64,000 nt of DNA from positions 4,511,330 to 4,575,329 of the forward strand of contig CP141140.1 in NCBI GenBank assembly GCA_035235625.1, in the 5' to 3' direction. Shown here piece by piece: positions 54,301-62,176 of this stretch (the stretch's first letter is position 1; each line of letters starts with the position of its first letter). Origin of the DNA: Saururus chinensis (Eukaryota > Streptophyta > Magnoliopsida > Piperales > Saururaceae). The notes below the pieces were generated by a model, which searched no databases, was not told the origin of the DNA, and worked only from the letters and a program-made list of their open reading frames with translations. A program made the translations under genes and the position numbers.

Positions 54301-55369
54301 TTCATGTTTGAATGGTGAGTGTCCCACATGACCCTAAACTTTAATTATTTCATTTTAACAAGTTTCAAAATTTTTAAACTCATTTTTAGCCTTAAAATGA
54401 GCTTAATTAGCCATTAGGGCATTTTAATTCGTCTCAACAACTTACAATGAGGGCGTTCGGTAAACAATTTAAAGTAGCAAGAAAATAAATTGGTTTTAGA
54501 ATCGGTTTTAGAATCGATTTTTGAAAAGAAAAGCAAAAATGAAAGATATTTGGTTCAAGTTTTAGTGGATGATTTTAAAGGGAAATTAGATTTTAGCTCA
54601 CTTTTGATTGTTGTATGTAAAATTACGAAAATATCCTCCAACATAATTGTTATACAAAGAAAGTAATGGGCATAATGTCTTTTCAAGTCATTTTAAAAAT
54701 TAAATCGTTTTCTTCAAGAACTCACCTCTTGAGGTGAGTTCTTGAATAAATCGGATTTTGGGTTAATTCGGTTTGAATTGACCCAAAATGTGATTTTTGA
54801 CAGTAAAACGATTTTACCCTTATTTGACTCTTCTATACGGGCCTGTTAGGGGTTTTAGAAAAAAAAATCCAAGAAAAGTAACTTTTCTAGGAAAATTATT
54901 TTTCTAGGACAATAAATTTCCATTGAAATAAATATTTCTAGGGTTAGGGGTTTATTTGAAAAATTTTCCTAGAAAACTTTATTAATATAAGTAAGAGAAT
55001 GGTAGAAACCATGGTGAATGAAAGTAGAATAAAAAGGGAAAGTAGAGTATGGAAGGAAGGCAAGAACATATGGGTCCAGGGGAGAGAAGGGAGAAAGATT
55101 ATAGCCAAATTATCAAACAGAGAAGAAGGAGAGGTGGGAACTACTGCAAATGAGGATTTTTACAGTCTTCAATGTAGGTAAGAAAATGACAATAATAAAA
55201 TTTGTCTCAACCTTAAGTGTGACTCCTGACTATGCCTTGAAAATTGTTTGCATGAGCAGTAAATATGACTAGTAAATATAGTCATATTTTCCTTAAATTG
55301 TTTCACAACCGATTCTTCACAAAAACATACGTAATCATAAGTAACATTTTTTGCAATAATTTAGGGTCC

Positions 55370-55955
55370 ACAAGATAGATCTTATGCCTCCATTTTAACT
55401 TATTTTATACCAACTCTTTTGTAAAAGATAACATAGTTATATCTTTTTTTATTAATTATATCAAAGGTCTCTTAGGACTTCATCTCCCTTTTTTAACATT
55501 ATTTACATAAAACCTTTTAATTTTTTTATTAAGATATCCATTAATCTTTTTTGTACATACTCATACCAATACAACCTACACTCTCTAAACTTCTCTTCTA
55601 AATATACACATCTACCTTAACATCCCCATTTCAACTACATTTTATTTATATATATAATTTTTCTTTGTTACCCAACATTTTACTTTATAAAATATTACAG
55701 GCTTAATAGCAATCTAATAAAACTTACTTTTAAGCCTAATTAGAACACACATATCACACAAAACTCCTAACACCATTCTATTTTTCCCACAAAGTAATAA
55801 TCTTATGTACCACATCACTAAGTGATATCTCCCTTTTTTGTAGATAATAGAGTCAAAATATCCAAATTGCTCACATCTCAGAACTTCTTACCCATCTATT
55901 TTGACTAAAATTCTACTTATAGTTTCACTATCCTTAAAGTTAAATTTCATATACT
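55370..55955 (-). pseudogene. LINE RT C-terminal fragment, antisense
   Basis: The complement matches the 3' part of the LINE at 23397-24825: AACTATAAGTAGAATTTTAG, then GAGATATCACTTAGTGATGTGG, GTAAAATGTTGGGTAACAAAG, GTAGTTGAAATGGGGATG and ATCTTTTACAAAAGAGTTG. It is 5'-truncated and full of stops; it belongs to the same or a closely related family. Confidence 0.75.
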
Positions 55956-57749
55956 CTTAACACGATTTTGCCTAGGCCATGCAATTCATATTCGGAATAT
56001 TATTGCCTAGGCCTAGTGGATATGCAAGCTTAAATTAGATGTAATTATAGAGGCTCATAAAACACCATAGTTACTAATTCAACATTTGGAACCGGATAAT
56101 TTGTCATGAAGCTGTAACATGTCCAAAAAAAGTTATACTTTAGGAAACTGGATCTCTTAAACATAATAAATATAATGGAAAAAGAAAGCTCTTCAGTTTT
56201 CATTTACTTTTGTTTTTTCTACAATGAAATGAGATTTTTCAAGTTTTGACTGAGAATTCCCTCACGGTGATTTCTTTTGTGGGTCATCCCAGTAGTCCAC
56301 AAGCCATTCATTACAACAATTATAAACTGAATGTACCTATAAACCCAGTATGCGTAACTATCTTCGGCAGCTCCTCTTTTTCATTTAAGGATTGTGAAGA
56401 AATCAACTGATTCTGCTATGAGATTTATACTTCACACCTGATCATATAGCAACTACAATTTCGGAATAAACAATGCCCAAATGTCAGTTATCAGATATCA
56501 ATTAAAAATGAATGAACTGGACCCTGTTTCATCAACTATATTAGCAAAATCAAATGCATCAATCCTTTTGAAAAGATAGAGGTTAGAAGAACAGAAAAAC
56601 ATGAGTAGAAATGCATTTAGGAATTGACATATACAAATTGAGGGGACTTTTGATTATACAAAGGATAAATACAAAGGAGACTTTTGATTATCAAACCAAT
56701 TCGTCTATCTATAAAATGGGATGTTGTCCTAGCACTTTGTGCAGTAGTTTACTCCAAATTTGAAGTTGTCATAGAAGTAAATTATTGCGAGAATAAGTGG
56801 AGATAGAAAGTTGAAACATCATCTTAAGGAGTAGCTTCATGTATTCCCATTGCCACTCCGTCCAACCATTAGTACTATTCTGTTTAGAGTAAATTAATAT
56901 TCAACATTATGCAGGATTCAACACTAGAAACACCATCAATCCTTTTGGCATGCAAGCCTTGGATGTATAATACCTACAAGATTTCTAATAAGGGTTGTGT
57001 CCACAATGATATTATTCAATACATTTAATTCGGTCATCTCAAATTGTGCACCAAAAGAAAAAAGAAAGAGTAAAGACAGCCAATATGATAATGCAGCCCT
57101 TATATGTGATAGTCATGGCAAGATGACTTTCACACAAGGGTCCTATACAATGTGGTTAAGGCTAACAGGCGACACCTAGGTGATGGTCATTATTGCAAAT
57201 TGTGATTAAACATAAAAAACAAAATAAAAGTACCTTTAAATATTATTTCAGAAGAGCCTAGATGCACAAAAGCAAGCTCAAAATATAAAGTTCAAACACG
57301 TATCCTAGCTGCCTGAGTTCAACAATGCAGATTCACAATTGAGTTTGTTACACGTGGATAGTTATTATATTTAAATTCATATAAAATTGTCAAGGTATTT
57401 ATGTTCCAAACCTTTCAGAGACAACCCACTTAAAAAAAATTAAAAAAATTGGGTAATGTCTACAGGGGCAAGGTTGTTATGGTGAAAATAGGCGCATCTA
57501 ATGACAAACTGACCAGATGGCTTCATGGCAAAAGAACCTGATGTTGCTCCAACACAAAATGTTAATACTAGTAAAAATACAAAGTAGCTACCCTGTGTTA
57601 TTGGGCTTTGTTAAAATCAGACATTTAAGCACGTTGTATTAAACATTTATGGTTTTCAAGTAAATGATATGACACTGTGTTGTGTTAGGATTTGCAGCAG
57701 TTAGATATAGATCCACTTTTCAAGAGAAGAGCATGTGTAGGTAGCAAAC

Positions 57750-59345
57750 CTTGTCAAAAGATCAATAAGATTTATCTCTCTCACACGACATGAAATTTCA
57801 CCAAGGACACCATTTATAATCCCAACAAGCTCCTCTGGTCCATCTCTATCAGGAGTTAAACGAGAATACCAAAGATCTGTCACCCACTCTGAAACCAGAT
57901 GCCGTGAGAATTGATCAACCGCTGCCTCAACAGCAGGAGAATCCACTTTTCTCCTCCAATCAGACTTTTCTCGCAAAGCTTTGGATGCCTCAAAAGGAAT
58001 TTGGGCAGTGAGAACTCTGGGGGAGGAATATTTGTTGGGGGCTGCATTTCTTCTTCGCATCTCAAGCTCATATGAGATATAGCAAATAAAGAGAACTAAA
58101 GAGGTAGCAGCAGGCAGATTGACCAAAACAGAGGAGATCGTCACTAGAAATAAATAAATAGTTAAAAAGTGTATGATGTCTGTAACAAGTAATAAATACT
58201 GTAATATGATAACTAAATTTGTACACATAACAAGAATGACTCAGAGCAAATACAAGCCATAAAGTATAGAATACAATAACTAGTGTACTTTTTAAAAGTT
58301 GCAAAAGAATACAACAATTTTTAGTTGCACACAACTTCAAAAAAGAGTGTGACTGAAGTATTTTTGTGCCAGCATCTTAAGCCTCACGAACACTCATTCT
58401 CACATCGAAATTATGAAGTTTGTGATTCACTATTAACGAAAGTATGAAGGTTGTCATTTAATTCCATAAAAGTTACACTTATAATATGCATATGCATTTC
58501 CTGTCTCATAGACGTAAGCTTGCCACAAAAATGTTTGGATAATTCCTAGGCACAAGACTATGACCCCAGATCAAATCAGTTCTTTAAATTGCAGTTTCAG
58601 AATCACACTGTTTTTGCAGGAAGAAAAAAAACCATAATGTACAAGTGCTAAGGAAATAAGTGAGGGAACTTACAGGACATAAGGTACGATAACCCAATTA
58701 CACATATAAACAAGAGGACGATCCGCTTCTTCGCTTCCTCAACCAGGTCCCTCGCAGTCTGTCTTCCCGAACTCACTGAACCACCATCAACATCTTCATG
58801 AGCTTTCTCCAAAACATCATACTTGTTTTTTTTTATTTTGATAGGTAAGACTCGCACAGGCTCACACCCTTTAGGTCAATGGAATTTGATCTAAGAACCA
58901 CTCCCACAACCGGGAGAGATCCAACCAGCCCCACTAAGTCTGAATAGGCAAAAACATCATACTTGGAGCTACAGAAGTCAAGGTCCCTGCTAATAGTATC
59001 ATAATTACACAACAATGTAAAACCAATTGATGGATTAAGTAAATTTCACAATATAAAAAGTCAAGTCAAGGCATCAGGAAGAGACACATGAAATTAATAC
59101 AAGCAAATTCCTTTTTTCTAATTATCAGAATTCCTCAAGTAAACTAATTAAGAAAAAAAGGGAAATTGTAAAGTTTTTCTTGCCACCAGTTTATACTCCT
59201 CTGAGAACCATAATGAAGACAGCAGATAGAGAAAGAAAGAGTACCCAATATGCTTGAAAACAAGGTAAACAAAGAGGGCAATATTGAGGCGCTCGTTGTA
59301 GGTAGGTACAATGATGCTGTACTTATTGGGGCTTTTCTCTTCCAT
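57750..59345 (-). pseudogene. Chimeric gene remnant: DPMS1 exon 1 joined in frame to PXA-domain exons, split by a SINE-like insert
   Basis: Exon 59345-59245 encodes MEEKSPNKYSIIVPTYNERL then NIALFVYLVFKHIG, the N-terminus of the catalytic subunit of dolichol-phosphate mannose synthase (ER, GDP-mannose to Dol-P-Man). The next acceptor, at 58986, continues in phase as GDLDF, like the DPMS1 second exon, but then reads CSSKYDVLEKAHED and GRQTARDLVEEAKKRIVLLF to the donor at 58674. Exon 58143-57750 continues in phase with SLTISSVLVNLPAATSLVLF, SDWRRKVDSPAVEAAVDQF and INLIDLLTR, the start of a plant PXA (Phox-associated, sorting-nexin-like) protein with two hydrophobic segments. The DPMS1 catalytic DDGSPDG and DADLSHHP parts and the later PXA, PX and nexin-C parts are absent. 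A 125-bp retroposon interrupts the joined frame. Function is unlikely now. Confidence 0.75.
58826..58950 (-). mobile_element. SINE-like retroposon with 15-bp target duplication
   Basis: A 125-bp insert is bounded by perfect 15-bp direct repeats AAAACATCATACTTG (58811-58825 and 58951-58965). Its A-rich tail (CAAAATAAAAAAAAA on the minus strand) abuts the left repeat, so it was inserted in minus orientation. The body (GTGGGGCTGGTTGGATC, GGGTGTGAGCCTGTGCG) has no sure tRNA-type A and B boxes, so it may be a 5'-truncated copy. Confidence 0.85.
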
Positions 59346-60234
59346 CCTTCTCTTCAAATCCCTCTCTGATAAAAATGAAAAAGAAATGGCACCTGAAGAT
59401 GTAAGTAAATGGAGTCCGGCCGACGAAGAGAGTGGCGATCGCAGCCGGTGGCGGTAAATTTGGCAGATTGCACAATTTCCTACATGTTTTGGAGCAATAA
59501 CCCTCACCCCATCAACATAAATCAACCCTCCTCACTGAACCACCAAATACAGAAAGATCGACTTAACAGTGCACAATTTCACGTCATTTACTTCGCAAAT
59601 TCAAAGTTCCCGATTCAAAACTCGAAATCATGGTCAAATTCTCTCCTCGTTGCAAATTTAAAGTTATACGTAGTTACTGCAGCAGTACTGGAGATTGAAT
59701 GTAAGCATAATATTTATAATGACATACTGTAATGGTGGTGGCTGTCCTTGGCGTGACGTCCTGTGCTCGCTGGAGGCGGAGCATTTATGTTAGAGGAGAA
59801 CGGCAATCTTCGACGGAGATGGCAGAGGCAAATCAGAGAGGGAGATCGAGAGAAGATGACAGAAGATTACATAAATAAATCCCTGGAGGCCAGAGAGATC
59901 GAAAGGGAGAAAAAGAGAGACATACCGGGGAGGGGGATGAGGATCTCCTCGAGACCAAACCCGATGCTCGGAAAAAATGGTTTCCAGAAGGTCGGGGGTC
60001 GGGAAATAAATGCCACATCTCCACCCACTTTTCCCGCGGTCGGAAAAATAAAATTTTCCGTTTTAAAATTTTTTAAAATCTCTAACAAGGTATAAAGTTA
60101 TTTTCTGAAAAATTTATTTTCCGACTTATTTTTCCCTGACCCCTAACAGGGCCAACGGTTTTTAGTCGGAAAAGCCATTTCTAACCTAAACAAATGACTT
60201 TTAAGCTTAAAAACTTATATCCCAAACGGGTCCT

Positions 60235-61594: not shown

Positions 61595-62176
61595 ATGGCC
61601 CTGTCCAAGACCTGCCTGTTGCTCCATCTTCTCTTCCTCTCCTTATTCTTCTCGAAAACCCAGGCTGTTAGCGCCCGCCGTCCAGGGACGTCGCCTCCCG
61701 GTGATCTCATCAGGGCATCGTGCGCCAGCGCCCGGTACCCCAAGCTCTGCGTCCGCACCCTTTCCACCGGGGCCGCCTCCGCCAGGACCCCCGCCGACCT
61801 CGCCCAGGCCGCCGTCTCTGTCTCCCTATCCCGTGCCCGGCGCTCCTCCTCCTTCCTCTCGCGCGTCCGGGGCCGGAGCGGCAGAGAGAGCGGGGCACTC
61901 AGGGATTGCGTGGAGCAGCTGTCGGACACCATGGACCAGCTCCGGAGGACACTCACGGAGCTGAGGCATCTCCGATCGGGGACGTTCCGGTGGCAGATGA
62001 GCAACGCGGAGACATGGGTGAGCGCGGCGCTGACGAACGAAGACACGTGCCTGGACGGGTTCCAGGGGGTGGGGGGCAGCGTCAAGGCGGCCGTCAGGAA
62101 GAAGGTGGCGAATGTGGCTCGCGTGACGAGCAATGCCCTCTATCTCATCAACCGCTTGGCTTCCACACGCCCCTGA
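61595..62176 (+). CDS. Pectin methylesterase inhibitor-domain (PMEI) protein
   Basis: Secreted four-helix-bundle proteins of this family (plant invertase/PMEI superfamily) bind pectin methylesterase or acid invertase in the apoplast. A single exon of 193 aa has the normal length for a lone PMEI domain. Residues 1-27 (MALSKTCLLLHLLFLSLFFS onward) form a signal peptide. The four conserved Cys are visible at C43 and C52 (ASCASARYPKLC), C105 (ALRDCVEQLSD) and C152 (NEDTCLDGF); TWVSAALTNEDTC is a typical PMEI helix. The ATG at 61595 (context ACAATGG) is preferred to 61568 because the hydrophobic signal follows directly. GC content at third positions is very high compared with the neighbouring genes. 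PMEI versus invertase inhibitor cannot be separated by eye, although PMEI is favoured. Confidence 0.92.
   Translation: MALSKTCLLLHLLFLSLFFSKTQAVSARRPGTSPPGDLIRASCASARYPKLCVRTLSTGAASARTPADLAQAAVSVSLSRARRSSSFLSRVRGRSGRESGALRDCVEQLSDTMDQLRRTLTELRHLRSGTFRWQMSNAETWVSAALTNEDTCLDGFQGVGGSVKAAVRKKVANVARVTSNALYLINRLASTRP

Follow-up and report, generated by a model that had tools for sequence, protein, structure and literature searches.

A PIF/Harbinger-type transposon carrying pieces of three host genes in the genome of Saururus chinensis

Introduction

On contig C1 of the Saururus chinensis genome, exon 1 of a DPMS1 gene lies beside exons of a gene for a PXA-domain protein. The locus raises the question of how these two sequences came to lie together and whether they form a gene. 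A preliminary description of the window (the whole 64,000-nucleotide stretch of DNA that was analysed, C1:4511330-4575329) had read them as the remnant of an in-frame chimeric gene that arose by exon shuffling or gene-fragment capture. Pack-PIF elements are TIR elements of the PIF/Harbinger superfamily that contain host gene DNA, and Pack-TYPE elements holding DNA from multiple loci are described in the same source (sections of PMC8903248 drawn on here). These sections also report that PIF target duplications are mostly TTA/TAA (52.4% in rice and 81.2% in maize), and capture by neighbouring insertions is proposed there for Pack-CACTA and other Pack-TYPE elements (PMC8903248). According to the relevant part of PMC2528002, PIF elements of grapevine (Pifvine-3) hold captured exons and introns, some of which are common to several copies. 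Template switching has been proposed for animal Pack-TIRs and plant Pack-MULEs (PMC8277862, available text). In this study, the origin and the coding potential of the DPMS1-PXA locus were analysed.

Materials and methods

The sequence searched was the 516-Mb genome in 11 contigs. The terminal-region repeats comprised at least 40 left-end matches from 200 candidates and at least 41 right-end matches from 123 candidates; the best 40 of each were scored. Relatives with paired ends (n = 7) were those with a left and a right end no more than 9 kb apart among the matches listed. The target duplication was testable in six of the seven, one right end not being recognisable.

For transposase linkage, the best 150 of 452 candidate places were taken, of which 45 close and 42 more distant matches were tested and 63 were left out. 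Seventy-five of the 81 end matches were used as family ends; two at the window, two in the second copy of the element (copy B), the C6 locus, and one duplicate piece were dropped.

Results

The DPMS1 and PXA sequences lie inside a TIR transposon of 5315 bp at 54839-60153 (unstranded). Its inverted repeats, 54839-54902 and 60153-60094, are 72% identical, and the TIR GGGCCTGTTAGGGG is matched by 14 of 14 bases at the left end and 13 of 14 at the right end. The left flanking trinucleotide is TAC (54836-54838; unstranded flank sequence), presumed to be a target site duplication; it agrees in two of three bases with AAC on the right (60154-60156). Copy B was found at C1:15068036-15075131. Its homology to the window element starts and stops about 8 bp or less from the TIR ends, and ATA stands on both sides of it as an exact 3-bp duplication. 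The two copies have unrelated flanks together with common ends and common DPMS1/PXA junctions, which indicates that the element was mobile as a unit. About 1.4 kb past the right end of the window element, 61595-62176 (plus strand) holds a pectin methylesterase/invertase inhibitor frame (PF04043, 147.5 bits).

The ends belong to a dispersed family. Genome-wide repeat matches mark out a left terminal region at 54839-54983 (plus strand) and a right terminal region at 59669-60153 (minus strand). Among the 40 listed left-end matches, 37 stop matching at about 54989, the three exceptions being the window, copy B, and the C6 locus. The right end is present in at least 41 matches including the window, the others being 72-90% identical over all or part of the region. 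An island of transposon interior at 57635-57689 (unstranded) is common to copy B and six other family members, in each of which it lies close to a listed right end. Exact 3-bp duplications were seen in four of the six testable relatives (ATA, ATA, CTA, and ATA); one of the remaining two has a mismatch at one base, and the other is without match. In a by-eye count of 29 left flanks, including those of the window and copy B, ATA/TAT (14) was commoner than TTA/TAA (9), which counts against a textbook PIF assignment; CTA was seen twice and other trinucleotides four times.

One relative, C2:24133296-24135859, has both TIRs and an ATA duplication, and encodes a fragment of DDE_Tnp_4 transposase (40.6 bits against a cut-off of 24.8), which is of the PIF/Harbinger type. 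Of the 45 close transposase matches, 13 have one of the 75 family ends no more than 8 kb away and are on its inner side, where 0.05 were expected, and none of the 45 lies on the outer side only. No more distant transposase was found near a family end (0 of 42 tested). The 63 matches left out include 12 that are close or partial, and four of these 12 (C1:6236069, C1:21482790, C2:37092374, and C4:29487416) proved to be on the inner side of a family end in a comparison with 8 of the 75; the matches at C2:37092374 and C4:29487416 are second pieces of elements counted already. Within the window element itself, no transposase was matched among the best 150 of 452 places found with one PIF transposase as the query. 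The carrier is thus non-autonomous and belongs with the Pack-PIF elements, the published Pack-TYPE transposons of the PIF/Harbinger superfamily. Given the 3-bp duplications and the linkage to PIF transposases, neither Mutator nor hAT is favoured as the carrier. In another relative (L068, C9:11506300-11508760), the interior has a protein-kinase-like stretch (PF00069, 22 bits, below the cut-off of 31.7); the transposon family may therefore have captured further genes.

Pieces of three genes are present in the window element, all in the same orientation (minus strand), and the source genes still exist at C1:13.90 Mb (DPMS1), C4:14.64 Mb (PXA), and C6:11.48 Mb (leucyl-tRNA synthetase). The DPMS1 piece at 58784-59471 (minus strand) comprises 5' flank/UTR, the start codon, exon 1, and part of intron 1, and is 98.1% identical to C1:13899374-13900061 over 688 bp without a gap. 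Exon 1 lies at 59345-59245 (minus strand), where the preliminary description had placed it, and its 101 nt are identical to exon 1 of the parent (C1:13899500). None of the six exon matches in the parent, C1:13899503-13902536, has an internal stop, and together they span query residues 3-241 bar short gaps. Exon 1 is the only one of eight genome-wide DPMS1 protein matches that lies at the window; a functional DPMS1 would have all coding exons, and the further exons that could have contradicted the reading as a remnant are missing there. Long matches to a 461-bp DPMS1 query are confined to three loci, namely the window, copy B, and the parent. The captured intron contains a SINE-like repeat (about 58825-58950, minus strand) with an A-rich tail and a 14-bp duplication, AAGTATGATGTTTT. 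This repeat is also present in intron 1 of the parent, and 37 of its 40 scored matches lie outside the window, copy B, and the DPMS1 parent. Within the DPMS1 piece, 59245-59471 (227 bp of 5' flank and exon 1) has no difference from the parent, the 13 differences being confined to the intron part; this uneven spread was seen after the fact and is possibly due to chance.

The DPMS1 piece is nested in a copy of the PXA gene. The larger PXA piece, 57690-58775 (minus strand), contains the end of exon 1, intron 1, exon 2 (58143-57752), and part of intron 2; it is 98.3% identical to C4:14640033-14641118 over 1086 bp, far beyond chance. On the other side of the DPMS1 piece, 59493-59653 (minus strand) was captured from the 5' region of the PXA gene, shortly before the start codon (99.4% identical to C4:14641137-14641297 over 161 bp). 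In the parent, the two pieces are adjacent apart from 18 bp. It follows that the DPMS1 piece replaces 18 bp, the last of which is the A of the PXA start codon, and the window copy has GTG at the position of ATG. Remnants of PXA exons occupy about 58771-58674 and 58143-57752, with their splice sites kept, and a 179-aa frame matches the Pfam PXA profile with 40.1 bits against a cut-off of 27, so the PXA sequence reported earlier is real. The match covers only profile positions 1-63 of 181; with ATG changed to GTG, the copy has neither the start codon nor the complete PXA domain of a functional gene. Long matches to a 1151-bp PXA query are again limited to the window, copy B, and the parent. The search for the parent genes that had been suggested thus yielded both, DPMS1 on C1 and the PXA gene on C4, and both match at 98-99% over exons and introns alike.

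The third gene contributes two pieces. The first, 54984-56642 (minus strand), is the 3' flank of the gene (94.2% identical to C6:11481461-11483103 over 1660 bp). The second, 56664-57637 (minus strand), is upstream, presumably intronic, sequence (98.4% identical to C6:11483755-11484729 over 975 bp). The window copy lacks the last coding exon, whose place in the parent is between the two. This exon (C6:11483473-11483222) matches leucine-tRNA ligases with an E-value of 9.5e-10 and TIGR00396 with an E-value of 3.5e-10 (38.7 bits, where the cut-off for the whole protein is 548), and no Pfam match was found for it. The C6 gene is called a putative leucyl-tRNA synthetase on these last-exon matches, and the name is weak. 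An older dispersed repeat at about 55320-55960 in the captured flank has approximately 69-81% identity to many places.

Copy B bears on the age of the captures. In a three-way comparison of the PXA piece (1086 columns), the window had 10 changes of its own, copy B had 5, and the parent had 8. For the DPMS1 piece (542 columns), the counts were 5, 7, and 7, respectively, with one column all-different. These counts suggest that the parents and the copies split at roughly the same time, at a divergence of about 1-3%. Between the window and copy B, the divergence is 1-2% for the PXA part and about 8-18% for the outermost 440 bp at the right end. For the first leucyl-tRNA synthetase segment, the divergence from C6 is 3.7-6.6% in the window and 3.5-7.8% in copy B; this larger divergence suggests that its capture may be older or that the repeat-bearing stretch changes faster. 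Given the uneven divergence, the three captures may differ in age. In copy B, the second segment comes from another part of the C6 gene (11485290-11485520), so the copies do not have every internal junction in common. DPMS1 exon 1 of copy B is interrupted by about 2.27 kb of inserted DNA (about C1:15072067-15074340, locus L017) with inverted TAGGGCTGCC-type ends and an 8-bp duplication, GCTGTACT, which is hAT-like. Since this signature belongs to the insertion in copy B, it is no argument for a hAT carrier.

Seven junctions were examined for templated filler, and a repeat of at least 14 bp was found at one only. This is the 15-bp patch TGGTGGTTCAGTGAG at the DPMS1-to-PXA junction (58772-58786, minus strand), which recurs in the captured PXA 5' region at 59531-59545. 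For comparison, when 2000 random 25-mers were taken from the element, 47 matched it a second time on the same strand over at least 14 bp. At the PXA-to-DPMS1 junction there is a 21-bp filler (59472-59492, minus strand); GAAATTGTGCA (11 bp), which overlaps the filler end, recurs in the PXA 5' region. The 56642/56664 junction has a filler of which 13 bp recur just downstream. At the other four junctions, no repeat longer than 12 bp was found in the sequences compared. We infer that such fillers were left by repair synthesis in which the template was switched.

Discussion

The ends and the family of the element, the three parents, the nesting of DPMS1 in PXA, the DPMS1/PXA junctions common to two copies, and the junction fillers are all directly observed in the genome. 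They are best explained by a gap-filled Pack-TYPE PIF/Harbinger element that carries three gene pieces and was mobilised in trans, a reading to which we give a probability of about 0.93. A break in the interior of a non-autonomous PIF/Harbinger element would have been filled with copied host DNA, the templates being the leucyl-tRNA synthetase gene on C6, the PXA gene on C4, and the 5' end of DPMS1 on C1, nested in the PXA copy. Transposase supplied in trans would then have moved or duplicated the composite, which would account for the existence of two copies.

The preliminary description had instead proposed an in-frame DPMS1-PXA chimera made by exon shuffling and spliced at 59245/58986 and 58674/58143. 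Its first exon and donor are indeed identical to those of the parent, and the PXA splice sites are kept. However, the bases of GDLDF, taken as the start of DPMS1 exon 2, belong to intron 1 of the parent (C1:13899859); the true exon 2 starts about 0.8 kb beyond them at C1:13900656, where the protein continues GNVVDFEVIVVDDGSPDG (GNVVDF). This rules out exon shuffling at GDLDF. The frame does not hold either: the proposed junctions lead to TAA at 58835-58833 after 84 codons, before any PXA codon, and RQTARDLVEEAKKR is in another frame. That stop falls in the A-rich tail of the SINE-like insert, which sits between GDLDF and the PXA part, and splicing as proposed would yield a peptide of 84 aa that includes no PXA sequence. 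The pieces, moreover, hold introns, end mid-intron as in DNA copying, and sit in a transposon, and such a chimera is extremely improbable. Of the two origins once offered, gene-fragment capture stands, as both parents lie elsewhere in the genome; exon shuffling gives way before a TIR transposon carrier, a third gene, and a second copy. Joining exon 1 directly to PXA exon 2 gives a frame that stops after 58 codons. A fusion transcript could still arise from the exon 1 donor and an AG at 58771 or 58762, with an open frame of 194-197 aa to 57752; the predicted product, very unlikely to be made, would join the N-terminus of DPMS1 to the membrane segment of the PXA protein and the beginning of its PXA domain. 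Three of 32 AG sites scanned (58771, 58762, and 58750) keep the frame open from exon 1 through 57752 (190-197 aa), and the first two, but not 58750, hold RDLVEEAKKR in frame. Three open sites in 32 are unremarkable, and exon 1 of copy B is broken by the hAT-like insertion. The candidate acceptors are without a pyrimidine tract (by eye) and the PXA domain is shortened, for which reasons we regard this transcript as having a very slim chance. Equally slim is that of a single complex repair event that made a head-to-tail, minus-strand composite of PXA and DPMS1 5' ends with the leucyl-tRNA synthetase 3' part and so opened a new acceptor (58771/58762) for a DPMS1-exon-1/PXA membrane protein of about 200 aa. 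Judged from sequence, the DPMS1-PXA fusion is very probably not a working gene.

If the composite is transposon cargo, it could have been assembled in ways other than gap filling. Helitrons can join exons and introns from several genes, which would suit the composition of the element. Helitron ends have the form TC...CTRR, with insertion between A and T. The inverted termini, the 3-bp duplications, and the linkage to PIF transposases make a Helitron, or a segmental duplication, a practically negligible alternative to a TIR element. Joint mobilisation of two neighbouring transposon insertions with the DNA between them is a more serious candidate, having been proposed for all DNA superfamilies studied in the cited sections of PMC8903248; still, it is unlikely here. 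Each of the three source genes (DPMS1, PXA, and leucyl-tRNA synthetase) is on a contig of its own, and the DPMS1 piece sits precisely within the PXA copy, without terminal sequence of the family separating the two. This nested order and the templated patch at the DPMS1/PXA junction speak more for gap filling with template switching than for joint mobilisation under the neighbouring-insertion model set out in that part of PMC8903248.

An element of this kind is already known, since Pack-PIF elements and captured gene pieces are in print (PMC8903248 and PMC2528002, in the sections cited). The window element resembles Pack-PIF elements in being a TIR unit with host gene DNA from several loci, and differs in the mostly ATA-like duplications of its family, in contrast to TTA/TAA (PMC8903248, same sections). 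It shares with Pifvine-3 the captured exons and introns within a PIF element; as described in the relevant part of PMC2528002, the captured DNA of Pifvine-3 is an extra 5' region beside ORF1 and transposase regions, whereas no transposase match lies inside the window element (best 150 of 452 places, one query). Captured host DNA, microhomology at breakpoints, and multiple copies by later transposition are features in common with animal Pack-TIRs and plant Pack-MULEs, but the word PIF is absent from the available text of PMC8277862, in which plants are left as a question by the authors.

For annotation, the locus is a warning: a pipeline unaware of the transposon could call a DPMS1-PXA fusion gene at this element. 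It is also a clean and fairly young case, in which the three source loci, both product copies, and the junction fillers are all readable, and for this reason it bears on gene acquisition by plant TIR transposons.
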